A model generated the notes under the pieces. It did not search any database and was not told the DNA's origin. It was given only the letters and a program-made list of their open reading frames with translations. From positions 1-64,000 of IMG/VR virus record IMGVR_UViG_3300025012_000083: 64,000 nucleotides of DNA, one strand, 5' to 3'. Of this stretch, positions 14,841-64,000 are shown piece after piece; position 1 is the first letter of the stretch; each line of letters starts with the position of its first letter. Made by a program: the position numbers and the translations under genes. The stretch comes from a virus.

Positions 14841-14882
14841 ATTATATCTCCCTTCATATAGAAATCCCTAATATATTATAAA

Positions 14883-14929
14883 GTGGCAGGAAGTAGGGAA
14901 ACTTCTTTTCGATCCGTCGATCTAGCCAC
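14883..14929 (-). other. Three-way-junction element after portal
   Basis: The 47-nt sequence folds as outer stem GTGGC/GCCAC enclosing GAAGT/ACTTC and GATC/GATC hairpins. It lies between the portal gene start of the endonuclease and the portal stop codon. On the minus strand it is followed by TTTATAATATATT, so it could act as a terminator or RNA-processing signal. Confidence 0.4.
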
Positions 14930-14937
14930 AAAATTTT

Positions 14938-16576: not shown

Positions 16577-18415
16577 CTATCGCCTTGCTCTGCTTGATTT
16601 ATTTGCTATTGCGAAGTATGATGATGGGGAGATGTTTGTTGGACGTTTTTTACCAGTTACATGTTTTCTTCTTAATTCAGATAAATGCCATGCTAACATT
16701 GCACAAGCATATGCTCTATCGTCATTCATTTTATGTATTTTATCTGATGGTAAATCATATCTGCAATTTCCATTTGAACTTTCAAACCTATAAATATTAA
16801 CAAGTTCTTCTTTAAGAAGATCAATTTGTACCAATGCCATTTCTTCCTCAAACGATAATTTGTATATACTTGATTTTATTTCCTCTCCTTCTGTTTCATT
16901 CATGGTCAAATAGCCTTTACCATCGTATGTTTCAGGAAAAGAGATTAAATCTAAATTCATCATTTCAATTAATGCTTCAAAAAGTTGTTTTTTATATTTT
17001 TGAGGAGATATTAATTTAAGTTTATCAACTGCATTTGGAAATTTAGACACATAATCTATAGATTCAATTTTATCAATCAATCCTCTATGTTTGTTACCTT
17101 GTTTATCCACCCATTCTTCCATGAAATAGTCAGCAATATTTACTCCTCCTCCTCCAGAACCCGCATCAATGCCCAATATCTCAAGATTTTCATAATCTGC
17201 TGATGATTTTCCATTATAATCAAGTAACATTTGTTTAACCAATTCTACTTGTTCAGGTGTTCTCATAGGAGTCTTTTTCTTTTTAGCAATATCAACAAAA
17301 CTTACCCCACTACTAATTTTTAACTTATATCCTACAATGTCATCTAAAATAAATTCCCCAACCACACACACAGAATTATCGTAACTACGTGCAGGATCAT
17401 ACATAATACCAAATTTTCCACCAGTATTGTTGTATAAAGTCGGAACTCTTAATTCTGAGTTTTTTATAATAGTGGCACGTTTTACAATCTGATTATTGCC
17501 TCCTTCAGTTGTGAAGATATTTTTGTACTCGCGGAGGGCTTTTTCTTTATTTTCTCTCATTGCAGAATCAATTTTATCTTGAGTTAATAATGCAACTGGG
17601 TATAATTTTCCATTATATGTAGCATTCATTACGATATCAGAACTAATGTCTGCTACAAAAAATCTTTTATCCCCTAAAAACATTTTTTTGCTAAAATCTC
17701 TATATTTTCTAAAAAAATATGTATCAATGCTAGATGCTGATGAAGCATATATTAATTGATTTGGAAATTGTTTTGGATATAATGTAACATCAATATCTCC
17801 ACCTAATTTGAAGTCAGCATTTTGAGTTGTAAAAGGTTCAGAAGTTGTAAACAATTCATCTGAAGCAAATCCTGACTCATCGTAAAAATTTAAATTTGAG
17901 CGTTTTGAGCGATTTGAGTCCACAGCCCCATTTAGAGAATGAATAGTACTTCCATTATAAAGAGAACATTTAAAACTAGCAGGGTTATGAGTAAAACCAT
18001 CTGTATTAGCAGCAGATTTTACTGTTTCGTTTAAGAATACATCTGTCAAACCAGTAAACGAAGCAATATTATTCTTAGCAATATTTTCAATTTTCATAAA
18101 CATTTCTTGACTTTGTGACCCGACACCTGCCAATATATATGTATTAAAGTTTGGTATAAGCATTGATTTTGTCATTATAAAAGGAGAACCTAATGTAGTT
18201 TTGCCCCCATTCCTCCCCATACACCAAACACAGAAAGGAGTTGTCCAACTTTCCATAAAAATATATTTCTGATAATCCAAAAGATCAATTCCAAACATTA
18301 ATTCGACGAACCTCAGAGGCCACTTACGTCCCCATTGAATGATTTCAGCAAGTTTTAAATATCCATCAATCTTTCTTTGAGACATCATTTTATTATCCAT
18401 TAATAATGCCACCAC
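16577..18415 (-). CDS. terL: Terminase large subunit
   Basis: 612 residues from the ATG at 18415 (overlapping the upstream gene by 23 bases) or 607 from the ATG at 18400, which is better spaced from GTGGTGG. ATPase: Walker A GRNGGKTTLGS near residues 67-77 and Walker B LNFYDESGF near 175. Nuclease: LGIDAGSGGGG near 415 and the late acidic NDDRAYACAMLAWHL near 575. It powers DNA packaging and cuts concatemers. Complete and co-transcribed with the TerS-like gene and the portal. Confidence 0.92.
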   Translation of the reverse strand: MVALLMDNKMMSQRKIDGYLKLAEIIQWGRKWPLRFVELMFGIDLLDYQKYIFMESWTTPFCVWCMGRNGGKTTLGSPFIMTKSMLIPNFNTYILAGVGSQSQEMFMKIENIAKNNIASFTGLTDVFLNETVKSAANTDGFTHNPASFKCSLYNGSTIHSLNGAVDSNRSKRSNLNFYDESGFASDELFTTSEPFTTQNADFKLGGDIDVTLYPKQFPNQLIYASSASSIDTYFFRKYRDFSKKMFLGDKRFFVADISSDIVMNATYNGKLYPVALLTQDKIDSAMRENKEKALREYKNIFTTEGGNNQIVKRATIIKNSELRVPTLYNNTGGKFGIMYDPARSYDNSVCVVGEFILDDIVGYKLKISSGVSFVDIAKKKKTPMRTPEQVELVKQMLLDYNGKSSADYENLEILGIDAGSGGGGVNIADYFMEEWVDKQGNKHRGLIDKIESIDYVSKFPNAVDKLKLISPQKYKKQLFEALIEMMNLDLISFPETYDGKGYLTMNETEGEEIKSSIYKLSFEEEMALVQIDLLKEELVNIYRFESSNGNCRYDLPSDKIHKMNDDRAYACAMLAWHLSELRRKHVTGKKRPTNISPSSYFAIANKSSRARR

Positions 18416-24829: not shown

Positions 24830-25400
24830 CTTCTTTCAATTGTTAATTTTATTTTTTGTTAGAGTAATTAACTCAATTATTATTATGAAGGAATTAGTAG
24901 CTTGAGCAGATCATATTTTTCAATATAATCTTACATAATTCCTTCACAATACAAGCAAAAATGCATCCATAAACCTCATACTCTTTATCAGAGCAATGCC
25001 TGTCTTTCAAGGTCTTACTAACTTATGCACATGATTTTAGGGAAGGTTCGCAATTGCACTAGCGTTGACCTAATTTTATCAAACCCTAAAATAAGTTTTT
25101 ATTGTTGCTGTTTTGGTTTATGCAATTTCCAAAAATCATCACCACAACAATTTATAGAGGGAAATAAAAGATTGCTCTCATGAGCATGTAATAGATGATA
25201 TCAGACCACAATAGTAAGGCGGTGTATCTTACATCTCAGATACTCTTTCGAGTGCGTCAGGAACCATTTCTGACCTTATTGTAGTTAATTAAGGTAACTG
25301 CCAATGAATCGCCAAACTCACCATATCTGTAAGAGATATTTAATCTCTAGAAATATCCTGCAATTAAACCATCACCTATCTGAGTGATATCACTTTTTAT
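24830..25400 (-). other. Structured intergenic region (possible ncRNA/leader)
   Basis: About 570 nt without a gene but full of paired segments: TGAAGGAATTA/TAATTCCTTCA (11 bp) near 24890-24954; TTTTAGGG/CCCTAAAA around 25036-25095, enclosing AGGT...ACCT; and a multi-branched unit at 25208-25282. It lies upstream of the 24817 gene in the direction of transcription, so it could be its leader or a separate RNA. Confidence 0.4.
25208..25282 (-). ncRNA. Four-way-junction RNA candidate
   Basis: On the minus strand ACAATAAGG pairs with CCTTAC-TATTGT and encloses three hairpins: TCAG/CTGA, ACTC-GAAA-GAGT (GNRA tetraloop) and TATCT/AGATA. The compact fold and GNRA loop argue for a functional RNA. It lacks the T-arm consensus, so it is not a tRNA. 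Confidence 0.4.
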
Positions 25401-32131: not shown

Positions 32132-32910
32132 TTATTTATTAACCAACAAACCTTCCTTATGTAATCTAACTCTTTCCTGTCCTAACTCAAAATACTTTTC
32201 ATCATTCTCAAACCCTATGTAATTTCTATTTGTATTTATACATGCTATTGCTGTTGTAAAAGATCCCATACAATTATCTAAAATCAATTCACCTTCATTA
32301 GAGTATGTTTTTATAAGATATCCTAGTAATTCAACTGGTTTTTGAGCAGGATGAAGTTTATTTTTAGCATTTACAACCACATTAAATTTTTGCACACTTG
32401 TAGGATATCTTAAATCTTCGTAATTTTCTTTTCTTACTCCCGTGATATTATGTAAATCGCTTTTTACTTCTCCCGTTGTATATTTATAATTATTTCTTTT
32501 AGCGGAAGCTTCTGTAACATCCCTTGCTTCTTTTATTGGGTTGTATGTAGGTTTCTTTTTGTAAAAAACACTTATCGTTTCATGACTTCTCATTGGTTGA
32601 TTTTTTGCATTCGCAAAACCACTTGGTTTATTTTTATGCCAAATCCAATCATATCTAAATAATTTTATATTACTCAATCTTAGATAACTGCTAAAGGGTT
32701 CTGCTCCAAATAAAACTATCGCTCCATTTTCTTTTATAATTCTTTCATATTGTAACCACAACTTATCTAGAGGGATTACACTGTCCCATTTTGCTTGAGT
32801 AGTACCGTAAGGAAGATCACAGAGGATTAAATCTATACTTTTATCTTCTATTATACACATACCATTATCACCAATACAATCCTCATTATATACTTTATTC
32901 AATTCTAACA
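32132..32910 (-). CDS. DNA adenine/cytosine-N4 methyltransferase
   Basis: 259 residues from the ATG at 32910 behind GAAGGAAAT; a further upstream start at 32962 has no ribosome site. Motif IV comes first (ILCDLPYGTTQAKWD, residues about 27-42), then the target-recognition part (WIWHKNKPSGFANAKNQPMRSHE), and motif I last (LILDNCMGSFTTAIACINTNRNYIGFE, about 205-231), so this is a beta-class amino-methyltransferase. Its likely role is protection of phage DNA from host restriction; no partner nuclease is nearby. Confidence 0.85.
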
Positions 32911-32985: not shown

Positions 32986-33255
32986 TTATTTATATTTTAT
33001 AATGTTTTTATGATATAATTCATCAAAATCTTCATTTGATAACGGACTTGTTTCTTTAAGATAATTGTAATGCTCTTCTTCTTTTAAAGTATTAGTCCAT
33101 TCTCTATTCCAACATTCTTCACAATCAGAATTGTCTTTACATAAAATCATTTCTCCATTAGATATCCCATACTCCTGTGGGCAAGATCCTGAAATAATCA
33201 TATTAGGATTTCTGTTGTTATTTTCTATCTCTAATGCTTTTTCAATAAGTTTAAT
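32986..33255 (-). CDS. Cys-rich small phage protein, AUU start
   Basis: 89 residues if started at ATT 33255, 8 nt after AGGAGG. The first ATG in frame (33201) has no ribosome site and would cut MKLIEKALEIENNNRNPNM, a start conserved in similar phage proteins as I recall them. Cys-containing centre: SGSCPQEYGI, LCKDNSDCEECWNREW. Likely zinc-binding. Function unknown. Confidence 0.65.
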   Translation of the reverse strand: MKLIEKALEIENNNRNPNMIISGSCPQEYGISNGEMILCKDNSDCEECWNREWTNTLKEEEHYNYLKETSPLSNEDFDELYHKNIIKYK

Positions 33256-41570: not shown

Positions 41571-41830
41571 AATTTTGCGTTCACATTCTAGAATGTACCC
41601 CCTATTTTGAGTACAAATTCTAAAGTTATGCTCACACACATTTGCGTTCAAATTCATAGTATTTTAGAAAGTAAACGCTTTTCTGTGTGAGCACTCTCTG
41701 CGTTTGTACGCAAAACTGTGTGAGCACATTTAGAATGTAAACGCTTTTTAGTAGCCACATCACAGAGAATATAGAGTTATATAAGTATAAAGAGTAAAAA
41801 AGAATATAGAGTAAAAGATTATAAAGAGTT
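41571..41830. repeat. Cluster of direct and inverted repeats
   Basis: Non-coding. Copies of GTAAACGC: TTTAGAAAGTAAACGCTTTT (41663-41682) and TTTAGAATGTAAACGCTTTT (41729-41748), with two inverted versions near 41571-41593 and 41642-41654. GTGTGAGCA occurs twice direct and once inverted, so long stems can form. A second part has four repeats of the type ATAAAGAGTAAA (41780-41840). Suggests a binding array for a regulator or an origin. Confidence 0.55.
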
Positions 41831-45294: not shown

Positions 45295-45723
45295 ATGGCA
45301 AAGAAAATTAAATCCTCTAACACTGTTAGAAAACTAGAGGATACCAGTTGGTTAGCTCAAATTGTCCAAGATAAAATGGATGTAGAGTCTAGTAAAATGG
45401 GGTTATATCCTTCAAGTCGTTGGAATGCATTAAATACCTTACATATCATCATCAATGAAGCAGACGATCAAACAAATGACAATATCTACTACGATACCTA
45501 CAATAGAAAACAATCAATCACAATATGCGAAATACCATCACTGATAATGAAATATGGATATGATTACGATATAGAAGGAATGCAAGCAAGACTAAGAGGA
45601 CTTGCAGAAAGATATAAGGATGATGACGGAATGTACATTGTATCAGTCCTAACCACGAATGATCTTAATAGTGCCACCATAAAAGATTTAGAAGAATTGA
45701 TGTATCAAATAGGAACTCATTAA
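45295..45723 (+). CDS. Early protein, unknown
   Basis: 142 residues from the ATG at 45295, behind AAAGGAG. Helical; contains SRWNALNTLHIIINEADD and a C-terminal YIVSVLTTNDLNSATIKDLEELMYQ. First gene of the rightward block, followed by its own terminator. Function not recognised. Confidence 0.6.
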   Translation: MAKKIKSSNTVRKLEDTSWLAQIVQDKMDVESSKMGLYPSSRWNALNTLHIIINEADDQTNDNIYYDTYNRKQSITICEIPSLIMKYGYDYDIEGMQARLRGLAERYKDDDGMYIVSVLTTNDLNSATIKDLEELMYQIGTH

Positions 45724-45724
45724 A

Positions 45725-45752
45725 AAGGGAATCTAAAAATTTCCTTTTTTTC
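45725..45752 (+). terminator. Intrinsic terminator
   Basis: AAAGGGAA/TTTCC-type stem followed by a T7 run directly after the stop codon. Confidence 0.7.
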
Positions 45753-45782
45753 TATCTTTAAACTTGAAAGGAGCAAAACAAA

Positions 45783-45932
45783 ATGAAGTGTGTAATTATT
45801 GTAAATGGCAAAATACTAAAAGAATATGATTCAGATAATATTAGAATATACAATACCAAAAAAGAAGCTGAATCAATAGCAAGGAATATTAAAGAATCAA
45901 AAATTATTGTTAAACCATTGAAGGAAGTTTAA
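45783..45932 (+). CDS. Small early protein
   Basis: 49 residues, ATG behind GAAAGGAG: MKCVIIVNGKILKEYDSDN, then helix KKEAESIARNIKESK. Its stop codon is inside the terminator stem, as in its neighbours. Confidence 0.55.
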   Translation: MKCVIIVNGKILKEYDSDNIRIYNTKKEAESIARNIKESKIIVKPLKEV

Positions 45933-45946
45933 AAGACTTCCTTTTC
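45921..45946 (+). terminator. Intrinsic terminator
   Basis: GGAAGT/ACTTCC with a loop containing the stop codon, then CTTTTC. Confidence 0.7.
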
Positions 45947-46135
45947 TTTGTCTTATAATCTATTCACTCTCATATCTAAATGCCTTAAAAGACCCTTCTA
46001 GCCTCTTATAATAGCATCTTATAACCTTAATTATCCTACATAATTTTAACCTAAATAATAGGAAGTAATAATAAGAAATACATTGCAAACTATAAAAATA
46101 AATATTATTCAACATGGTTTTTCCTATTGATTATA

Positions 46136-46144
46136 TGCTATAAT
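46136..46144 (+). promoter_or_regulatory. Extended -10 promoter
   Basis: TGCTATAAT at 46136-46144 with no clear -35 box. The same TGCTATAAT form occurs before the genes at 55202 and 55654. Confidence 0.55.
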
Positions 46145-46189
46145 GTATATAGTAGATCAAACAAATTAAATAAAAGGAGTTGCTTACAT

Positions 46190-46669
46190 ATGACTGCTAC
46201 AGCTAACCTCTTAGGCTATACTGGCAAAGTAAATATCCTAGAAGAAACTACTACAGGTTACGAAATTGAATTACTCCAAGGAAATCTAAAAGGCAAAAGA
46301 ACATTCGTTTCCAAAAGCTCCCAAAACGAAACAATAACAATTCCTAATCAAAAGTTTACATCTAAAATCTCCTACACTGTTTATAAAGAACTCAACGAAG
46401 ACACAAATACCGAGCAAGTGCAACAAAGATATCTTGACTTAACCATAACAGCACAAACCGAAGAAATAGCAGAAAAATTATGGGATAATTGCTTTAACTA
46501 CTTAGAAGAAAATGCAAGATTTAAAATTACTTGGATAGGATGTCCTGCAAAAGAGGAAGAATTAAATGGAAAATTTAGTTACTCAGACAATATAGCAATA
46601 TTTGACAAAGAAGAATATGAGGAACTAAAAGACCTATACAAAGAATGGAAGAAGTTAGGTAAGATATAA
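46190..46669 (+). CDS. Early protein, unknown
   Basis: 159 residues from the ATG at 46190 behind AAAAGGAG. N-terminal beta domain (NLLGYTGKVNILEETTTGYEI) and C-terminal helix-rich acidic part. Single-gene transcription unit. Function not recognised. Confidence 0.6.
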   Translation: MTATANLLGYTGKVNILEETTTGYEIELLQGNLKGKRTFVSKSSQNETITIPNQKFTSKISYTVYKELNEDTNTEQVQQRYLDLTITAQTEEIAEKLWDNCFNYLEENARFKITWIGCPAKEEELNGKFSYSDNIAIFDKEEYEELKDLYKEWKKLGKI

Positions 46670-46690
46670 AAAGTCTTACCTAACCTTTTG
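46655..46690 (+). terminator. Intrinsic terminator
   Basis: TTAGGTAAGA pairs with TCTTACCTAA around a loop holding the stop codon, then CCTTTTG. Confidence 0.7.
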
Positions 46691-46781
46691 TCTATTTTTG
46701 TCATAACAAAATCATTATAACAGCATAACAATTTACTTATAACAAATCTGATCATTGCAATATTAAAATAATTATAATTAT

Positions 46782-46810
46782 TTGACATATACCATAACAT
46801 TTGATAATAT
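46782..46810 (+). promoter_or_regulatory. Sigma-A promoter TTGACA/TAATAT
   Basis: TTGACA, 17-nt spacer, TAATAT, upstream of the gene at 46855. Confidence 0.6.
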
Positions 46811-46854
46811 TAAGAAAATTATCTAAATTTAAAGAAAGGAGAATTAATATAAGT

Positions 46855-47088
46855 ATGAGTAAACAAACGTTAGAATTTGAAATGCAGGCAATTTATAAAA
46901 CTGTAGAATTAAATCTTAAAAAAGACCATAATTATATACACAGGGTAATACTAAAAGAAACAGTATTCGAATATATCAGAAATATTTTAATAGAAATGCA
47001 AAACGACGATATTATTATCTACGGCTTATCTAAAGAATATGAAAAGGCATATACTGATTTTGAAAAATTAATTAAGAAAGAAGGTTAA
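46855..47088 (+). CDS. Small early protein
   Basis: 77 residues from ATG 46855, behind AAAGGAG. Helical and charged (MSKQTLEFEMQAIYKTVELN). Followed 7 bases later by the next gene. Confidence 0.55.
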   Translation: MSKQTLEFEMQAIYKTVELNLKKDHNYIHRVILKETVFEYIRNILIEMQNDDIIIYGLSKEYEKAYTDFEKLIKKEG

Positions 47089-47095
47089 AACAATA

Positions 47096-47305
47096 ATGCA
47101 AGAAAAAGATATCTATATTGTCAATGCTAAATTACGATTTAATGATAATAAAGAAGAAACTATACCTTTTTATGTAGATCGTGATACAATGGGTAAAGCT
47201 GAAGCAATAGTAGAAGAATGGCTGCTATCTGGAAAATCTGGTTATTATTTTACTAAAATATTAGCTATACGTGCAGATCATAATATATTATTATTAACTG
47301 ACTAA
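47096..47305 (+). CDS. Small early protein
   Basis: 69 residues. Ribosome site GAAGG lies in the end of the upstream gene, so the two are coupled. Beta pattern ETIPFYVDRDTMGKAEAIVEEWL. Function unknown. Confidence 0.55.
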   Translation: MQEKDIYIVNAKLRFNDNKEETIPFYVDRDTMGKAEAIVEEWLLSGKSGYYFTKILAIRADHNILLLTD

Positions 47306-47336
47306 GGACTTCTAGCAGAGTCCTTTTTCTTTTTGT
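47304..47336 (+). terminator. Intrinsic terminator
   Basis: AAGGACT/AGTCCTT, 8-nt loop, then TTTCTTTTT. Confidence 0.8.
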
Positions 47337-47463
47337 CTATAATTGTACCACTATGCTATATAAAACGTATTATAAGTCATTCTGGAGCCTCTGACATCAA
47401 TCTATTATCCTTATATCAATACTACCCTATCCAATCGTCTTGTAAACACTAATATAAAATATA

Positions 47464-47492
47464 TTGACAACTGCAAAATGAATTTATATACT
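47464..47492 (+). promoter_or_regulatory. Sigma-A promoter TTGACA/TATACT
   Basis: Consensus TTGACA with 17-nt spacer and TATACT, 82 nt before the gene at 47574. Confidence 0.75.
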
Positions 47493-47573
47493 CTTAATTA
47501 ATCCACCTTATCAGTAATTCAATTACATACCAAATACTAAAAATACATAAATAAAAAAAGGAAGTGCAACCTC

Positions 47574-47957
47574 ATGGCAAAAAATCTTAAACCTACAAAT
47601 CTCAAAAAATTATCTCAAATCAAAACCACAAACGGTTTCCGCATCGACCTAGCAAACTACATGTATAATCCATCATACGACCACGAATACCCAAACTTAA
47701 TCCAATGCACCCATGAAACCACAACTGAGCGATTCTACACCAATATCAAATACTTTAAACGTTACAATGGCACTGGATATTATTCAACAGAAACCTACTC
47801 ACACAAAATAGATCCTTCTAACTCCTGGAGCATTGCAAACAGTCTAAAGGAAACAGAACTAGAAGAATCTAACAGATTTAGCATGAAGAGACTAATAGAA
47901 CTGGCTGAACAAATTAAACTAGAAAACATTCCGGCAATTGCTGAAGCAGCACGTTAA
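47574..47957 (+). CDS. Early protein, unknown
   Basis: 127 residues, ATG behind AAAGGAAG. Basic N-terminus (MAKNLKPTNLKKLSQIKTTNG), many Tyr and Asn in the centre. Function unknown. Confidence 0.55.
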   Translation: MAKNLKPTNLKKLSQIKTTNGFRIDLANYMYNPSYDHEYPNLIQCTHETTTERFYTNIKYFKRYNGTGYYSTETYSHKIDPSNSWSIANSLKETELEESNRFSMKRLIELAEQIKLENIPAIAEAAR

Positions 47958-47985
47958 ACATAAATCACAAAATAAAATCCAAATT

Positions 47986-48007
47986 GAGGCTCTAACGAGT
48001 CTCTTTT
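47986..48007 (+). terminator. Intrinsic terminator, weak
   Basis: GAG-GCTC pairs with GAG-TCTC around TAAC, followed by TTTT. Confidence 0.5.
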
Positions 48008-48139
48008 CTATTCCCTAACATTCCCTCATCCATCCACCAAAACCATCTCACAATCAATCCTAGTGCATATCAGATTATATTCCGCTATAATCTAAAATAC
48101 ATATTCCCGATCACAACAAAATAAACCATAAAATAAATA

Positions 48140-48169
48140 TTGACATATTATATCCCATCATGTTATAAT
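48140..48169 (+). promoter_or_regulatory. Sigma-A promoter TTGACA/TATAAT
   Basis: Consensus boxes with an 18-nt spacer. The transcript starts about 40 nt before a well-formed ribosome site that has no ATG behind it (see 48222). Confidence 0.75.
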
Positions 48170-48221
48170 TAATTTTACCCAATTATACAAAATAAATTTA
48201 TAAAAAGGAGTTGAGCGAACC

Positions 48222-48363: not shown

Positions 48364-48585
48364 ATGAAATATAATGACTTTGAATCAACTATACTAGATA
48401 TGCTCTACAATTCTTATGGTCCTAATGAACTGGAAGAAGAGCAAGAGCCGCAAGTATTAAACCTAAAATACATCTTGGAATACTGCAATGAATATTCTTT
48501 AGAATCAGATCCAGACATAATATATCATGAATGGATACAATTATATGAGGGTAACGATGCAATCATACTAGAAATATCATACTAG
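48364..48585 (+). CDS. Small acidic early protein
   Basis: 73 residues, ATG behind GAAAGAG. Acidic (GPNELEEEQEPQVL), ends EGNDAIILEISY. Starts a three-gene unit with 48588 and 48692. Confidence 0.55.
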   Translation: MKYNDFESTILDMLYNSYGPNELEEEQEPQVLNLKYILEYCNEYSLESDPDIIYHEWIQLYEGNDAIILEISY

Positions 48586-57413: not shown

Positions 57414-57442
57414 TTGCAATCTTATTCAACATGTATTAAAAT
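57414..57442 (+). promoter_or_regulatory. Promoter TTGCAA/TAAAAT of the leader operon
   Basis: TTGCAA, 17-nt spacer, TAAAAT. It is the only good promoter before the long structured leader and the operon that follows. Confidence 0.6.
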
Positions 57443-57560
57443 AAGGCCATGGAAGAGATACATAAACCACTAGGAAGTAGTTAGTGGTCATTGAATACAA
57501 AAATAAAGGTTTTCCGATTTGCCCTCAAAAAATCGAGGTGACTGGTAAAACAGCCTAAAA

Positions 57561-57577
57561 GCTCTTTGAAAACTGAA
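57561..57577 (+). promoter_or_regulatory. rRNA-type boxA antitermination element
   Basis: GCTCTTTGAAAACTGAA matches the boxA found in Bacillota rRNA operon leaders and spacers (CTTTGAAAACT). A small stem-loop lies about 26 nt upstream, the boxB position. It should recruit NusB-S10-type antitermination factors. Confidence 0.6.
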
Positions 57578-58043
57578 TAAAACTTTCCTGAAGTTATACA
57601 AAAGTTGTTTATATGTCTATAAGTTCGCTTGCGTCTGATGGCAATTAAACAATATGGAAATACTGGCTCTAAGGTAGCCAAGGAAGTAATAGGGAAAGGC
57701 TTAAAACCTCTCTTTTATATTATCTAATTCTCTATCCTTCATAAATTCTAGCATATGGGATATTCCCTCTATATCAAAATTTTCTTAACAGCGTCCCTTA
57801 GTCGAATGATGATCTAAGACAGCCAAAAGAAAATAAAGATACACGGAATACAAAATATGTTAGATTTTATAAAGGATAGAGGAAAAGATAAAAACATTCT
57901 ATAAATCCCTTCAGTTTATTCATTATTACAATTTAATCATAACAATTCATTTAAACTTGCATAACATTATTAAAATGCAGGTTGTTGTAATTTAATGTTA
58001 AATTGTCTATACTTAGGGCTGAAGGGATTGAATTTTCCGCAAG

Positions 58044-58077
58044 GTGTGAACTTATAACAATGAGTTTAGACCTTGTT
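58044..58077 (+). promoter_or_regulatory. ATAACAA hairpin 1
   Basis: AAGGT/ACCTT and AACT/AGTT stems separated by GTG/TAG, loop TATAACAATG; an outer AATTTT/AAAATT stem follows. 33 nt before the gene at 58110. Confidence 0.6.
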
Positions 58078-58109
58078 TAAAATTTAAAGAATGAAAGAGG
58101 TTAAAAATT

Positions 58110-58364
58110 ATGAGTATGTACGCAATTGTCAAAGTTTTTAACACTGGTAAAATGGAGATTCAACAGGCCACAATCGGAACTAAGGAGTTTGCAGAATCTC
58201 AAATGGAATCATGTTTAAATCAGGATGAATCAAATATATACAGAGGAAACATCAAAAAATGTCAAGAAAAAGGTATCGATCCAACTATGTGGATTGAAGC
58301 ATTAAATTTACATGAGAATCTACGTGTAACTTATCAAGTTTGTCAAATTGGAATTATTCTATAG
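58110..58364 (+). CDS. Operon protein 1, unknown
   Basis: 84 residues, ATG behind AAAGAGG. MSMYAIVKVFNTGKMEIQQA then helical. First gene after the structured leader. Function unknown. Confidence 0.6.
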   Translation: MSMYAIVKVFNTGKMEIQQATIGTKEFAESQMESCLNQDESNIYRGNIKKCQEKGIDPTMWIEALNLHENLRVTYQVCQIGIIL

Positions 58365-58389
58365 TACTTTTAGAGTTTTTGAATTAATG

Positions 58390-58415
58390 CGCTGTGATAA
58401 TAACAATGCATAGCG
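58390..58415 (+). promoter_or_regulatory. ATAACAA hairpin 2
   Basis: CGCTGTG/CATAGCG (one wobble), loop ATAATAACAATG; outer AGTTT/AAACT stem. Confidence 0.65.
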
Positions 58416-58450
58416 TGTTGACGTGTAAACTTGAAAGGAAGTGTTGAAAA

Positions 58451-58663
58451 ATGAATGATGGAGAACGAGTGGAATTAATTAAGAATTGCTTAGATAATCC
58501 ATATATCAAAAAGGGAATGCAGGGTATTGTATGGAACGATTTTGTTGGATATGATGGACATATCACAATTCAATTTGATTTCGATATTTGCGGAAATACT
58601 ATAGTCAGAGACAAATATAACACTTGGAACATTAAACCAGAATTTTTAAAGGTTATTGGTTAA
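58451..58663 (+). CDS. Small DUF4314-like protein
   Basis: 70 residues, ATG behind AAAGGAAG. GERVELIKNCLDNPYIKKGMQGIVWN then a beta pattern resembles the SH3-like DUF4314 proteins of phages. Function unknown. Confidence 0.55.
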   Translation: MNDGERVELIKNCLDNPYIKKGMQGIVWNDFVGYDGHITIQFDFDICGNTIVRDKYNTWNIKPEFLKVIG

Positions 58664-58691
58664 AGTTAATTCCTAAAAGTTTGTTGGTCAT

Positions 58692-58725
58692 AAGATAGCG
58701 GAGACTATAACAGATTCGCTATCTT
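58692..58725 (+). promoter_or_regulatory. ATAACAA hairpin 3
   Basis: AAGATAGCG/CGCTATCTT (9 bp), loop containing CTATAACAG; outer AAGTTTG/CAAACTT stem (58677-58741), directly followed by the ribosome site AAGGAG. Confidence 0.7.
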
Positions 58726-58758
58726 GCGTCGAGTCAAACTTATAAGGAGTGGTAAGAA

Positions 58759-60073
58759 ATGGCTAAAGAAATGAATGTAAAAACTTTAGGAATTGTTGGT
58801 CTAGTATCTCAACTCAAATCAGGTCAAATTAACAGAGATGCTGAAATGCAGCGTTCATATGTTTGGGGGCAAAAAGAACAAACTGAACTTATTGACAGTG
58901 TTTTTCAAGTGTCAACTACTTATATTCCTCCCTTGATTGGTGCGGAAACTGAGGTTGAAATTGAGGTAAAAGGCAAACTAGAAAAAGGTTATCGACCTTT
59001 TGGATGGAAAGCAACGTTCCACTACTTTAGAAAAATTCCTAAACGATGAAATAAAATTAGGTCATAACATTCGGCCTGTTGTAATCGAAAATGAAGACGA
59101 TACAATCGAAACTTACATAGTCGCAGGGAAAAAGTGGAGCGAATTACCGGACAGAGCGAAACAAGTTTTCAAGAATTGCAAAATTCAAATGGTCTATTTT
59201 AAGGATATGACACAACATGAACGAGAGCTTCAATTTATCAAACTCCAAGGAGGTAAAAAATTAAGCAATGCAGAAGTAAATAAAGTTCGTATTGGTGGTA
59301 CTGTCAGAGAGTTCATTTATAAGCAATTGGCAACAGACCTATGGACAAAACATGTTGCTATTTCTTCTAATCGCGAAGTAAAATTTGAAGCAATGCAACA
59401 AACTTTAATGGTTATGTCTAGAAATTATGACTTATCCGGCAAGTCATTACAAGCCTTTTCAGAGGATTCTATAATGGTCACTGATGACATCATAGAGCAA
59501 GTTGAACAGGTCACAGAATACCTAAATGAAGTTGTAGCACTTATCAAAAAATTCTCATTACCTGCTGAACTTCAATCCCTTGAAGAATCTGAAGTTATAA
59601 CCAAACTCGAACCTAAAGAGCTTAAAAAGTATCTCAAGACCATAGACTATCTCAAGAAGGTAAATGTTCCTATCATCTATAATACTGCCTTAAAAGCCCT
59701 TCAGAACGATGTAAATACAAAAGACTTCGCTAAGTTTATCTCTAAATTCTTTGAGAATGTTTCTGCTAAATATAAGAGCAAAACGGAATCAGGAAGTTCT
59801 GATTCTGATAAAGTTAAGGCTAGAATTGATATGCTGAACGATGCCTTAATTAGCGAGTTTAAAATTGTGGAAAAGGTTGTTGAAGTAAAAGCGGAAGAGA
59901 TTCAAACTGAAAACCTTGAATCCACTATAACAGTGAGCGCAGAAGAGTTCAGCGATGAAACAGAAAATAAAGAAGAACAGTCAGAACAAACTATCAATGA
60001 TAAACAAGAACAGGATCAAGAATTCCAAGAAGAAACTCAAGCAATCCTAAACATTGTAAACAATGTTGCTTAA
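58759..60073 (+). pseudogene. DUF262 protein gene with +1 frameshift
   Basis: Two overlapping frames make one protein. Frame 1 from ATG 58759 gives QLKSGQINRDAEMQRSYVW and later KGKLEK; the second, joined in the A5 run at 58982-58986, gives VIDLLDGKQRSTTLEKFL and continues to 60073. Together they form a DUF262 (ParB/Srx-like nuclease-fold) domain with the QRxYVW and DGKQRSTT motifs, then a helical part and an acidic tail. The second frame has only a TTG without a ribosome site. Joined length about 437 residues. Confidence 0.7.
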
Positions 60074-60097
60074 TCCATAAATAATTGTATCTGGAGT

Positions 60098-60132
60098 CTA
60101 GACAATAACAATATTAATTTGCTATTGTCTAG
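60098..60132 (+). promoter_or_regulatory. ATAACAA hairpin 4
   Basis: CTAGACAATA/TATTGTCTAG (10 bp); ATAACAA spans the end of the 5' arm and the loop. Outer ATAATT/AGTTAT stem; TTCGAG follows the 3' arm as in hairpin 7. Confidence 0.6.
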
Positions 60133-60173
60133 CATTCGAGGTAAAGTTATTATATTCAAAGGAGGTCAAACAA

Positions 60174-60482
60174 TTGCAATTCTTAACCCACTACGAACGC
60201 TACAACGTGTTAAAATGGGAGCAACGTCAAATCATGCCAAGTTCAAATTTTGTGGCCTTAAACAATTCCTTTATGAGCCACAATTCTTCCTTGATAGGTT
60301 TCCAGGTTGAACATGAAGACAAACGAGTTCATTATTCAGTTAGTAATATGTTTCTTAACAGGTTGCAAGCTCAATTTCCTGATAACTGGTTAAAAATTCT
60401 TAATGATGGTATGATAGCAGAGTTTAAACAGTGGGAAAGAGGTATATATTCTAACATGTATCAAGAGGGATTTTTCAGTTAA
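60174..60482 (+). CDS. Operon protein, unknown
   Basis: 102 residues, TTG start behind AAAGGAGG. Contains HYSVSNMFLNRLQAQFPDNW and AEFKQWERGIYSNMYQ. Followed by a terminator hairpin. Function unknown. Confidence 0.6.
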   Translation: MQFLTHYERYNVLKWEQRQIMPSSNFVALNNSFMSHNSSLIGFQVEHEDKRVHYSVSNMFLNRLQAQFPDNWLKILNDGMIAEFKQWERGIYSNMYQEGFFS

Positions 60483-60516
60483 TAAAATCTATTACCCAAA
60501 TCTTAAAATAAAATTT

Positions 60517-60542
60517 AGAGAATTAGCCTTAATTCTCTTTTA
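60517..60542 (+). terminator. Intrinsic terminator within operon
   Basis: AGAGAATTA/TAATTCTCT with a 3-4 nt loop and TTTT. The only clear terminator among the hairpin-linked genes. Confidence 0.7.
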
Positions 60543-60593
60543 AGTTCATACAAAATAGGTTATAATATTTATAACAAATGTATGAACTTAAAA
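60538..60593 (+). repeat. Long inverted repeat with nested hairpin
   Basis: TTTTAAGTTCATACA/TGTATGAACTTAAAA (15 bp) enclosing GTTATAA/TTATAAC; the inner arm is followed by AA, so TATAACAA is present again. Its 5' arm shares the T-run of the terminator, so the two structures exclude each other. Confidence 0.6.
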
Positions 60594-60595
60594 GG

Positions 60596-60623
60596 CAATT
60601 GTGGAGAATATCTATAACAATTG
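60596..60623 (+). promoter_or_regulatory. ATAACAA hairpin 5
   Basis: CAATTGT/ACAATTG; the loop ends CTATAAC and runs into the 3' arm. Confidence 0.55.
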
Positions 60624-60651
60624 ACCTAGAATACTTGAAGGAGGTTCACAA

Positions 60652-60846
60652 GTGAAATATTGTGATTTTTGCAATGAGTCTTTCGACGTTCAATTTGTTA
60701 CTAAATATGAAACATTGATACACAAAAAGAAAGTATTATATATTTGTGAGTATTGTAATGATGAGCATTCAGAATATGACGATGCTGAAGAAATGCAGTC
60801 GATTACTTATGGCGATTCGATTTATTACCCTTCACGCTTGCTATAA
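60652..60846 (+). CDS. Small zinc-ribbon protein
   Basis: 64 residues, GTG start behind AAGGAGG. CDFCNESF and YICEYCNDEH pairs, then an acidic stretch (EYDDAEEM). Confidence 0.6.
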   Translation: MKYCDFCNESFDVQFVTKYETLIHKKKVLYICEYCNDEHSEYDDAEEMQSITYGDSIYYPSRLL

Positions 60847-60871
60847 CAAATCAAAGGAGAGTGATTTTATA

Positions 60872-61081
60872 ATGGAAAAATTAAGTTTTGATATAAACAA
60901 TGGAAGCACTGTTGAACTAATACAATTTAAACATGATGGAAGTGTATTAATAACAAAGTATGACAGCAAAGGCAATCAAGAAACGAATACAGAATCTATT
61001 TCTGCAGGTGATTTTATAACAATGCTTAATTGGTATAGGTATGAAAAAGGGAAAGGAAATCACAGTTTAAATTTTGACTAA
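60872..61081 (+). CDS. Small operon protein
   Basis: 69 residues from ATG 60872 behind AAAGGAG. Beta-rich (MEKLSFDINNGSTVELIQF). Function unknown. Confidence 0.55.
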   Translation: MEKLSFDINNGSTVELIQFKHDGSVLITKYDSKGNQETNTESISAGDFITMLNWYRYEKGKGNHSLNFD

Positions 61082-61101
61082 CCATTCTTTATCTCGACAG
61101 T

Positions 61102-61137
61102 GGGCAGGTAACATAACAATAACAATGTTATTTGCCT
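61102..61137 (+). promoter_or_regulatory. ATAACAA hairpin 6
   Basis: GGGCAGGTAACAT pairs over 13 positions with ATGTTATTTGCCT (three wobbles), loop AACAATAACA. Followed by TTTCGA and the ribosome site. Confidence 0.7.
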
Positions 61138-61168
61138 AGTTTCGAAATTAAGAAAGGAAGTGTATAGA

Positions 61169-61408
61169 ATGAAAGATTTTGTAATTAATAACGTGAATAT
61201 GATCAAAGAAGATTTTTCGCAAATGATTAACTATGTAGGTCAAAGAGCTATCGCATTAGCCGAAGTAGAAGAAGGTATTGCAATTAATACTTCTAACCCT
61301 TTAAACGAAAAAGATGTTCATAGTAGTATTATATTTTTCTTTGAAAAATGGAATAGGGTTTATAAATTAGATTACGGACGAAATGATATTGAAATCGTTT
61401 GGAGTTAA
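61169..61408 (+). CDS. Small operon protein
   Basis: 79 residues from ATG 61169 behind AAAGGAAG. Helical N-terminus, C-terminal RVYKLDYGRNDIEIVWS. Function unknown. Confidence 0.55.
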   Translation: MKDFVINNVNMIKEDFSQMINYVGQRAIALAEVEEGIAINTSNPLNEKDVHSSIIFFFEKWNRVYKLDYGRNDIEIVWS

Positions 61409-61444
61409 TAACTTTAAATTCTAATTTTGATTGTATGGAAATAG

Positions 61445-61477
61445 GGCGAAGTGACATAACAATAACAGGACTTCGTC
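61445..61477 (+). promoter_or_regulatory. ATAACAA hairpin 7
   Basis: GGCGAAGT/ACTTCGTC, loop GACATAACAATAACAGG; outer perfect stem AATTTTGAT/ATCAAAATT followed at once by AAGGAG. Confidence 0.7.
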
Positions 61478-61516
61478 TTGATTCGAGACTATCAAAATTT
61501 AAGGAGCGTGCATATT

Positions 61517-61774
61517 ATGACAAAGAAAGAAAACTTTAAATTAATTGCGGAGATTGCAAAAAGAGCAGAAAGTATGAATTTACTCATGTTTGACAGATTT
61601 TCTTTAATTATGGATTTAGAATGTGCGAACCGTGAATTCAATTTGAGACTTGAAGAATTTTTGGATGCAGATAATTTTAATTTTGCTCATGATATTAGCG
61701 GTATCCAAAATAATCTAAACAGACAAACGAAGCAATTTGAAAATTGTTTTTTGCCTAGATTTTCAAGCAAATAG
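61517..61774 (+). CDS. Small operon protein
   Basis: 85 residues from ATG 61517 behind AAGGAG. Helical (ENFKLIAEIAKRAESMNLLM). Function unknown. Confidence 0.55.
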   Translation: MTKKENFKLIAEIAKRAESMNLLMFDRFSLIMDLECANREFNLRLEEFLDADNFNFAHDISGIQNNLNRQTKQFENCFLPRFSSK

Positions 61775-61810
61775 ATTAAAACCAAACTTTTAAGGCATTT
61801 TGCAGAGTGT

Positions 61811-61842
61811 AAAGGGTAATATATCTATAACAATTGCCCTTT
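61811..61842 (+). promoter_or_regulatory. ATAACAA hairpin 8
   Basis: AAAGGGTAAT/ATTGCCCTTT (10 bp, one wobble), loop ATATCTATAACA. Flanks TTGCAGAGTG and ATTAATGCAC are shared with hairpin 9; a second hairpin GGC-CACG/CGTG-GCC with CAAGT in its loop follows. Confidence 0.7.
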
Positions 61843-61905
61843 ATTAATGCACTGGCACACGTTTCAAGTCGTGGCCTATGCTAAACTAAGAAAGAGGTTA
61901 TCAAC

Positions 61906-62244
61906 ATGACTAATGAACTAAAAGAGCGCATTAAAGAAGAAAATAAATATTCCGATTTATTAAAAAGCAATCCAAAATATATTCTTCAAGGTTGTGACAT
62001 GAAAACTAAAAAGCGTATCGTTGGAATTATTCGAGGGAACCCAAACGAATATCATGTTACAGATTTTCTAGATTACAAATATTTTGATTCTTGGAAAGAC
62101 GCTTATATGCAATTAGAATTAAATAAAGTGTACTGCTCAAACTGTGGAAAATCTATAACACCAGAAGTCACAGAATACGAGGAAGGACTAGAAAATTTTG
62201 AAAGTGAAAAGATATGTCCTATATGCGAAGAATATATTAATTAA
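61906..62244 (+). CDS. Zinc-ribbon operon protein
   Basis: 112 residues, ATG behind AAAGAGG. C-terminal ribbon: YCSNCGKSITPE and KICPICEEYIN. N-terminal part holds a small alpha/beta domain (IVGIIRGNPNEYHVTDFLDY). Function unknown. Confidence 0.6.
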   Translation: MTNELKERIKEENKYSDLLKSNPKYILQGCDMKTKKRIVGIIRGNPNEYHVTDFLDYKYFDSWKDAYMQLELNKVYCSNCGKSITPEVTEYEEGLENFESEKICPICEEYIN

Positions 62245-62257
62245 TCTTGCAGAGTGG

Positions 62258-62281
62258 TAGAGCGTATAACAAAACGCTCTA
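62258..62281 (+). promoter_or_regulatory. ATAACAA hairpin 9
   Basis: Perfect TAGAGCGT/ACGCTCTA with loop ATAACAAA; flanks as in hairpin 8, second hairpin ACAGG/CCTGT with loop TCACAAGT, then ATGCTAAA and the ribosome site. Confidence 0.75.
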
Positions 62282-62342
62282 TTAATGCACAAGACAGGTC
62301 ACAAGTCCTGTTAAGATGCTAAATTATTAGGAGGAATATATA

Positions 62343-64000
62343 ATGTCCAAATCTCTTCAAACTTTAAAAACCAACATTACTAAAGGCTCACAAAGACTTT
62401 CCAAAACTACTATTAAAAACATCGTAAATGCCGGAGAATTTGATAAAATTGAACTTGCCTATTCTTACGATGGCAGAGAAGTCCACAAAGGGACTTTGAT
62501 CGAAAATCCTGTTGAATGGTTCAATAAAGAGTATGAATTATTGGACGTTCGGCTCTACAAGGTAGAAAAAGGTTTAGTTTTAATTCATTTGCAATTCCAT
62601 TCTAACCTATGGTATGCTCTACATATTGACTTAAATAAAAACTATGAAACAACCAACGCACCAGGAGTTAAAGCAGAAAATAAAGTTCAAGATGTTCAAG
62701 TAACGGAAACAAAAACCTATCTTGACACAATGCAAAGCAAATTCAAAACAGGAGAAGGAACAGCAGAGGAACTAAGATCCTATTATACTTATTTAATTGA
62801 AAATGTTGATTCTGTAAAAGTTGTAATTCTTGACATGCTGAACAATTCAGAACAACACAAACGGAAACGTGCAAATACTAAAGCGGAATTGACTGAGGAT
62901 TGCTATAACAACATGGTAGAGGCTCTTGTATATCATGTTAAAGACACTTTATCTTACCAGATGGATTTTACTGATATCAAAGGAGCAAGACAAAGAGCTA
63001 TCAAGACAATTCTTGATTCTGCTACTGACGAAATGATACAAACCCAATATACCAAAAACAAAGCAGAGAAAGAAGAAAGAACAGTACAAAGAAAGGAATT
63101 AATTGAAGGGATTACAAATCCCCAAACCCTAGAGGATTTCCATAATGTCAAATATTATCGCAATGACAAAAACTTGACCATTGAAGAACAACAGCGTTTT
63201 GATCATATTTATTCAATCTCTCAGAAAGTAAAGAGAGAAAAAGAACAGCAGGAGCGAAAAGAAAAAGCACTTGCAACAGTTGTCGGATCAAATGACATGT
63301 ACGCTATAACAGCAGACGTTGACACACGCGACAATTCTCCTCTATGGGTTGTAAAACTCATAAATACTCTTAGTAAAGATGAATGGAGAATTCATGATTC
63401 ACAAATGAAATTAATTAGCGGTTATTATTCAAGATTCAAAAAAGGCCACATTTTCAAGTATGACCCAACATCTAAATTATTAGGAGAACAGTCTGAAGAA
63501 AACCAAGTAGAACAGTTGGAAGAAATCCAAGCATCTAGCAATAACAGCGACAAACTACGCAAGGTAGCAGACAACATGCAAAACACAATTGACAACAAAA
63601 GAGCAAACATACTGACAAATACTGCAAGAAGAGCAAGAATGGCAATAGGTCAAGAAGAGCAAGCAGACACATTAGAACAAATGCAGGGAGTTTTGCGAAA
63701 TATTGCAAATGCTATTGAATATGGTGAATTAACATTTATTAATCTTATTGATTCTAGGACACAAGTTGACACACTAGAAAGCATTCTTAATCGTGCAAAC
63801 TGGAAATATAAATCAGTTGAAAATATTGATTATAATGTATGGCATAATTCTCCAATAACAACAGACATTATTAGGTTCGCAGAAATTCCCTCAAGTACAA
63901 TTTATCTTCGTCAATTACAGTCTATTATTAATGATATTCGCAATACTGACGGTTTTAAACTCATTGCAAACCGATTGCAAAAACTAATTGACAATGCAAA
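62343..64000 (+). CDS. Large operon protein, partial at right edge
   Basis: ATG at 62343 behind TAGGAGG; open to the window end, at least 552 residues. Mostly helical and highly charged. A segment near residue 340-370 (DEWRIHDSQMKLISGYYSRF, KKGHIFKY) resembles a small domain found in large polyvalent phage and plasmid proteins. A coiled coil lies near 370-450. No catalytic motif identified in the visible part. Confidence 0.6.
   Translation, partial: MSKSLQTLKTNITKGSQRLSKTTIKNIVNAGEFDKIELAYSYDGREVHKGTLIENPVEWFNKEYELLDVRLYKVEKGLVLIHLQFHSNLWYALHIDLNKNYETTNAPGVKAENKVQDVQVTETKTYLDTMQSKFKTGEGTAEELRSYYTYLIENVDSVKVVILDMLNNSEQHKRKRANTKAELTEDCYNNMVEALVYHVKDTLSYQMDFTDIKGARQRAIKTILDSATDEMIQTQYTKNKAEKEERTVQRKELIEGITNPQTLEDFHNVKYYRNDKNLTIEEQQRFDHIYSISQKVKREKEQQERKEKALATVVGSNDMYAITADVDTRDNSPLWVVKLINTLSKDEWRIHDSQMKLISGYYSRFKKGHIFKYDPTSKLLGEQSEENQVEQLEEIQASSNNSDKLRKVADNMQNTIDNKRANILTNTARRARMAIGQEEQADTLEQMQGVLRNIANAIEYGELTFINLIDSRTQVDTLESILNRANWKYKSVENIDYNVWHNSPITTDIIRFAEIPSSTIYLRQLQSIINDIRNTDGFKLIANRLQKLIDNA

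Follow-up and report, generated by a model that had tools for sequence, protein, structure and literature searches.

Short asymmetric motifs that are strongly biased to one strand of the DNA are known from several systems, among them Chi, KOPS/SRS and the EcoP15I sites of phage T7. Chi and KOPS occur throughout the genome, the EcoP15I sites in T7 are merely one-sided, and tailed-phage genomes also carry their packaging and replication start signals as short sites. The subject here is the hexamer ATAACA in an SPbeta-like phage, record IMGVR_UViG_3300025012_000083 of IMG/VR, of whose 65.8 kb positions 1-64,000 were analysed (hereafter the window, meaning this whole stretch of 64,000 nucleotides). 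Like Chi or KOPS, ATAACA has a strand bias that is independent of gene direction; unlike them, it is not spread over the genome or over one arm but is crowded in one zone and kept out of the remainder of that strand, the other strand being neutral. This distribution matches no polar motif that we know of, and no description of ATAACA or AUAACA as a phage motif was found in the literature searched.

Two further described elements invite comparison. In SPbeta-type phages the repeated element on record is SPBRE, the 15-bp operator of the SPbeta repressor MrpR, which stands at promoters (PMC10516654). A relative of the present phage encodes an MrpR-like protein; ATAACA, however, is short and oriented and lies inside genes as well, and SPbeta is without the ATAACA pattern. 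The sequence CTATAACAAT is also, as we take it, similar to the boxA of E. coli rrn operons (CTTTAACAAT), with which it agrees at 9 of 10 positions. Yet boxA, of the rrn or the lambda type, acts as a single site near the transcript start, and a CTTTAACA-type core is not enriched in the zone, where TTAACA has 41 copies against 46 on the opposite strand, so that a boxA variant was rejected.

The leftward (late) arm of the phage codes for terminase, portal and a YonO-type RNA polymerase that is about 52% identical to the SPbeta and phi3T enzymes, and from about 45 kb on the genes of the window are directed rightward. Relatives, given here as G-numbered contigs, were taken from IMG/VR, with simple gene predictions of our own on the metagenome contigs, and they amount to about four independent lineages plus the isolated Psychrobacillus phage Perkons. 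A scan of viral contigs with a triple-array pattern gave 36 stretches, mostly unrelated, among which G017 proved a useful further relative with the same zone and strand pattern; G014 and G016, found by the same pattern, had no ATAACA zone.

Enrichment in one zone and exclusion from the same strand elsewhere

Over the whole window, both strands taken together, ATAACA occurs 70 times against 91 expected, hence without window-wide enrichment. The copies accumulate in the early block, which extends from 57.9 to 65.8 kb here and over 8-20 kb in relatives. When six blocks were pooled (this phage, G001, G004, G005, G007 and the distant G002) and compared with a second-order model, ATAACA was the top over-represented hexamer, with 234 copies on the + strand against 27 on the opposite one and 67 expected, an enrichment that is partly selected for since the block borders were chosen from motif counts; the depletion elsewhere and the cases of Perkons and G017 are less affected by that choice. 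Between genes the density in the blocks reaches 5-8 copies per kb in five close relatives.

The excess continues inside the genes, where ATAACA ranks first among 4096 hexamers (80 against 26.4) and exceeds synonymous shuffles 2.5-4.2-fold in both frames able to hold the motif. Relative to shuffles preserving both protein and codon use, observed and expected numbers were 15/5.5, 24/10.8, 13/4.6, 21/5.0 and 8/3.2, such shuffles leaving some codon-pair effects that opposite-strand controls in the same genes offset in large part. In G002, at 28% protein identity, there was no clear coding excess (26 against 18). The preferred form is the extended consensus C-H-ATAACA-R, in which position -2 favours C, position -1 is hardly ever G and position +6 is a purine, and the block favours it 7.7-fold. 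Perkons has its zone at 5-27.5 kb, with 28 in-gene copies against 15.3, and 7 copies against 29 on the + strand between 55 and 136 kb.

Beyond the block, both arms are short of ATAACA on the block's physical strand, despite their opposite directions of transcription. In the late arm, pooled over five records, antisense copies number 16 against 78.5 expected and sense copies 105 against 109.8; in the right arm of three records it is the sense copies that fall short (34 against 93.6), with antisense copies at 130 against 130.0. The most sense-depleted hexamer is TGTTAT in the late arm and, A runs aside, ATAACA in the right arm, and in strand asymmetry outside the block ATAACA ranks first of 4096 hexamers (33/103 against 133/140). 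In the flipped contig G010 the effect is reversed along with the contig. The full motif H-ATAACA-R is the most avoided in the late arm, with 2 copies against 28.3 expected, and since the block prefers C-H-ATAACA-R, one and the same sequence is subject to enrichment and to depletion. The ratio of observed to expected ATAACA is 0.61 just right of the block, 0.28 further right and 0.21 in the late arm.

ATAACA copies form clusters in which distances of 14, 8 or 6 nt between starts are frequent. Ahead of the block such clusters take the form of arrays, one of them in the window (Table 1) and others in G017 (32275-32339 and 33112-33153) and G005 (17155-17174). With terminators and promoters identified by eye, each of these arrays immediately follows a terminator and precedes the next promoter, a position with little transcription.

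Hairpins and control elements of the early operon

The preliminary description had picked out nine hairpins at the junctions of a rightward operon of small genes, and had read their conserved loop on changing stems as the mark of one RNA element recognised through that loop. All nine were recovered on the + strand at the coordinates given, in an operon that begins just 3' of a probable promoter (Table 1), and all fold better than shuffles, that at 60596 weakly. Their RNA folding energies run from -13.8 to -28 kcal/mol, and their stems do differ in sequence, with ATAACA in or at the loop; it lies half within the stem in the hairpin at 60098 and overlaps the 3' arm in that at 60596. They are not one RNA family, comprising two type-P5 twisters, five long interrupted hairpins and two assigned to no class.

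Type-P5 twisters (RF02684) share the segments GCAGAG, TAATGC and CAAG, set about a P1 hairpin that varies. In hairpins 8 and 9, GCAGAG and TAATGC flank a variable P1 and CAAG follows downstream, in the correct order, and the pattern GCAGAG-N20-48-TAATGCAC has two matches in the window, these same hairpins, against 0.01 expected. The Rfam Twister-P5 covariance model matches hairpin 9 at 58.6 bits (cut-off 37.6) and reported no match for hairpin 8. Judged by these segments, both are predicted twister ribozymes of type P5 and additions to an established ribozyme class, and for two of the nine hairpins the opinion that no described family applies was mistaken. The present twisters differ from the described ones in standing between genes of one phage operon and in carrying ATAACA in the P1 loop, outside the twister consensus; the literature searched on twisters and phages gave nothing on this arrangement.

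The five long, mismatch-interrupted hairpins (58390, 58692, 60098, 61102 and 61445) adjoin the ribosome site. A search for homologous elements in related phages did find junction RNA structures there, the long hairpins being kept with altered stems. Long double-stranded RNA with interruptions at gene junctions is also a property of T7-like RNase III R-sites, which presumably offer the nearest likeness as long mismatch-bearing hairpins at successive junctions of an early operon. The likeness would be one of function only, with cleavage putative, and several of the present hairpins differ in reaching the Shine-Dalgarno sequence as well.

A second, outer stem touching the ribosome site had been described for most of the hairpins. 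By flank swapping over 31 distinct ATAACA hairpins of this phage and its relatives, twisters included, the outer stem holds above chance for the class: own upstream and downstream flanks pair better than swapped ones (median score 12.5 against 10.0, p = 2e-5), and a score of at least 14 is reached by 42% of own flanks against 13% of flanks from other elements. Contact with the ribosome site holds for several, in which the predicted outer pairs extend to the Shine-Dalgarno sequence (58692 here, G004 58131, G007 47659 and G017 45833). As to the suggested role in processing or translation, RNA processing is probably involved, given that two of the hairpins are predicted twister ribozymes, and the long hairpins may serve both processing and translation control.

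Hairpins with ATAACA are peculiar to the block: the motif is present in 40 of its 68 strong intergenic hairpins, and in none of the 72 that three relatives have in their right arms. Related hairpins without the motif exist in the block too, such as, in G001, a twister at 48435 and a long hairpin at 41788. Compared with anagram controls, intergenic copies of ATAACA lie more often inside hairpins; coding copies do not. The long inverted repeat at 60536-60596, next to hairpin 5, encloses a TATAAT-like promoter, and junction repeats of this kind, with such a promoter, are kept in relatives at G001 44389 and G017 47292.

Upstream of the operon, two copies of ATAACA (57939 and 57961) stand 22 nt apart at an operator-like repeat, and the adjoining promoter lies beside the operator in relatives as well. 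Further upstream is a sequence that we take to resemble boxA, the site for antitermination in rRNA operons of Bacillus, and a boxA-like sequence precedes the block in G004 also (56667). The region 57440-57720, which combines an apparent promoter (TTGCAA-17-TAAAAT) with this boxA-like sequence, is possibly a leader or a small RNA.

Table 1. Positions of the ATAACA-rich block, its hairpins and associated elements in the window; z is taken against dinucleotide shuffles, and numbers in brackets after hairpins are the positions used in the text
Feature	Position	Strand	z	Remarks
Intrinsic terminator	46654..46699	+		11-bp stem GTTAGGTAAGA/TCTTACCTAAC, T-rich tail
Array of four ATAACA	46703..46744	+		starts 14, 8 and 14 nt apart; between terminator and next promoter (TTGACA at about 46783)
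boxA-like sequence GCTCTTTGAAAACTGAA	57561..57577	+		upstream of block; from sequence
ATAACA-rich early block	57939..63860	+		continues to 65.3 kb in the record
Inverted repeat AACTTGCAT-N12-ATGCAGGTT, probable operator	57954..57983			just upstream of block promoter; kept in G001, G005, G007
Probable early-block promoter TTGTAA-17 nt-TATACT	57985..58013	+		start site predicted from sequence
Hairpin 1 (58044)	58039..58076	+	-6.4	ATAACA at 58054; at putative transcript start; strong, -19.7 kcal/mol; no class given
Hairpin 2 (58390), long interrupted	58373..58432	+	-3.3	ATAACA at 58400
Hairpin 3 (58692), long interrupted	58669..58750	+	-5.0	ATAACA at 58707; outermost predicted pairs take in Shine-Dalgarno
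Hairpin 4 (60098), long interrupted	60083..60148	+	-6.4	ATAACA at 60105; orthologues in G001, G005, G007
Hairpin 5 (60596), weak	60593..60627	+	-2.5	ATAACA at 60614; no class given; 3' of long inverted repeat
Hairpin 6 (61102), long interrupted	61085..61154	+	-6.2	ATAACA at 61113 and 61119; orthologue in G007
Hairpin 7 (61445), long interrupted	61424..61498	+	-5.8	ATAACA at 61456 and 61462; orthologues in G005, G007
Hairpin 8 (61811), predicted type-P5 twister ribozyme	61801..61877	+	-3.7	ATAACA at 61827 in P1 loop
Hairpin 9 (62258), predicted type-P5 twister ribozyme	62248..62310	+	-4.9	ATAACA at 62266 in P1 loop
Block ATAACA copies outside named hairpins	58617, 59064, 59927, 60571, 60843, 60950, 61016, 62155, 62905, 63306, 63541, 63855	+		

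What could read the motif

The late antisense strand is purged of ATAACA while late mRNAs tolerate it, which a signal acting solely in transcripts does not predict, and the single rule of one DNA strand fits all regions, so that a one-directional process on DNA is favoured. The preferred explanation, although confidence in it falls short of even, is that ATAACA is a polar motif on one DNA strand, read by a one-directional phage machine of replication or packaging. Held more tentatively still is the fuller picture of a strand-specific DNA address code, in which the oriented motif would mark the landing or cutting zone of such a machine and the rest of the strand would be purged; with the same reserve, and as part of the same picture, the code could run through coding sequence as much as through RNA structures.

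Such an arrangement would have two layers. At the RNA level, the junctions of the early operon would hold either self-cutting twisters or long interrupted hairpins, the latter probably RNase III-type processing sites that partly mask the ribosome site. At the level of the DNA strand, C-H-ATAACA-R would be a genome motif, concentrated in a single early zone and avoided elsewhere on that physical strand, and its presence in hairpin loops would arise because loops are the free positions in otherwise constrained junctions. A one-way machine, whether replication exposing one strand or DNA packaging, would recognise the motif on that strand and act solely in the zone, where it would load, start, stop or cut. 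For packaging, a cut signal would become increasingly harmful as the head fills, which would fit the growth of the depletion to the right of the zone. The structures, the motif, its zone and the strand-specific depletion are observed; that the reader acts at the DNA level is what we infer from them, as we do the identity of the machine.

Several observations weigh against a reader of DNA. The block begins sharply near the early promoter, in DNA transcribed rightward, as expected of an RNA signal, and this sharp start together with the boxA-like sequence upstream keeps RNA-level models alive. Composition skews at fourfold sites have no consistent strand component, and the genes that run against the main direction of each arm are too few to separate a DNA from an RNA reading directly. 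The 14-nt spacing is not the helical repeat of DNA, and the reader may for that reason see a single strand. The relatives come from few lineages, several contigs being near-identical and from one metagenome series, and the contigs are incomplete.

An RNA-level factor is a less likely alternative. A phage or host protein would bind AUAACA in nascent rightward transcripts, for antitermination or RNA protection; the early operon would need it, the motif would be avoided elsewhere on that strand, sense or antisense, so that rightward transcription stops before the opposing late operon, and late transcripts, made by the YonO-type polymerase, would be unresponsive. The sharp start of the zone near the promoter, the boxA-like sequence upstream of it in two phages and the location of intergenic copies inside hairpins all accord with such a factor, yet the strongest depletion is on the late-arm antisense strand, at a long distance from the zone, and RNA of this kind would need to be common there. 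Moreover, the arrays behind terminators are wrongly placed for antitermination, and the right arm shows no avoidance of ATAACA in the leftward antisense direction. The prospects look poorer for a self-targeting mRNA interferase, a phage MazF cutting RNA at (H)AUAACA(R), by which early lytic RNA, loaded with sites, would be destroyed in lysogeny or after the early stage, and which right-arm RNAs would escape by avoiding the site. MazF targets are short and often contain ACA; MazF-family genes number two in each of the three large relatives G004, G007 and G017, close to lysogeny genes of YopQ-like and MrpR-like type, Perkons has a single one, and SPbeta, which lacks the motif pattern, gave no MazF hit. 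The choice between lysis and lysogeny in phi3T is reported to involve control of host MazF by factors of the phage (PMC10769878). An interferase, however, does not predict late mRNAs with normal numbers of AUAACA and a depleted antisense, and the co-occurrence is weak, MazF genes being common in Firmicutes phages (96 records).

The single RNA family first proposed, whose recognised loop would govern translation or processing across the operon, draws on the block-specific ATAACA hairpins and on outer stems that are real, and is nonetheless very improbable; it was set aside because the motif is selected in coding sequence away from hairpins and follows the DNA strand. ATAACA is neither confined to hairpin loops nor mainly enriched in them: it forms tandem arrays after terminators, is excluded elsewhere from the same DNA strand whether sense or antisense, is common to unrelated structures (twisters and long hairpins) and absent from some hairpins, and in Perkons, by reading of the listed sites, lies mostly outside hairpins. 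Its presence in the loops belongs to the larger strand-wide pattern and is not a signature of the hairpins. Avoidance or skew without any function of the zone, for instance from restriction pressure or mutational bias, is barely credible. Sequence avoidance does act in these phages, as the palindromes AGATCT (2 against 67 expected) and AGTACT (7 against 53) are strongly avoided in the late and right arms of G000, G004, G007 and G010, in the manner expected for restriction sites; but restriction acts on both strands and enriches no zone, and the coding excess goes beyond synonymous shuffles and has a defined extended consensus.

A few further candidates were rejected. Type III restriction enzymes require opposed sites, and because zone and rest are opposed, the orientation of ATAACA would give no protection. 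A promoter -10 element would be avoided both leftward and rightward, yet one strand alone avoids the motif. A pause site or terminator of YonO, read as UGUUAU in late RNA, is countered by SPbeta, which has YonO and no depletion (10 against 11.6 expected at 21-64 kb), and would leave the right-arm pattern unexplained. As Chi is generally understood, a GC-poor motif in a layout without benefit would not serve as a Chi site.

Should the DNA reading be true, a motif under selection across about 20 kb, coding and non-coding, and purged from at least 100 kb on one strand would represent another type of signal than such short start sites, and it would reveal the direction in which a genome-scale machine travels. 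Should the RNA-level rivals be right, ATAACA would instead be a label that these phages, related to those in which the arbitrium decision between lysis and lysogeny was discovered, place on their own early RNA. In either case the hairpin loops alone would have misled, and the cultured phage Perkons makes the reading directly testable.

Neighbouring features

Between the late arm and the block, at 45300-48200, small genes stand amid long AT-rich spacers, several with a terminator and promoter of their own. On the - strand of the window, Rfam matches were obtained to skipping-rope RNA (25206-25284) and int-alpA RNA (14866-14932). A GmrSD_N/DUF262-type gene at 58759-60073 is divided between two overlapping frames near 59000, and its relative in G004 (58204-59505) is a single open frame; the split may be a sequencing error, a true mutation or frameshifting, which are indistinguishable here. 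The pairs of MazF genes near YopQ-like and MrpR-like genes lie at 151063-160471 in G004, 105774-114750 in G007 and 114.3-124.1 kb in G017, and in all three the longer of the two MazF proteins has an additional N-terminal part.

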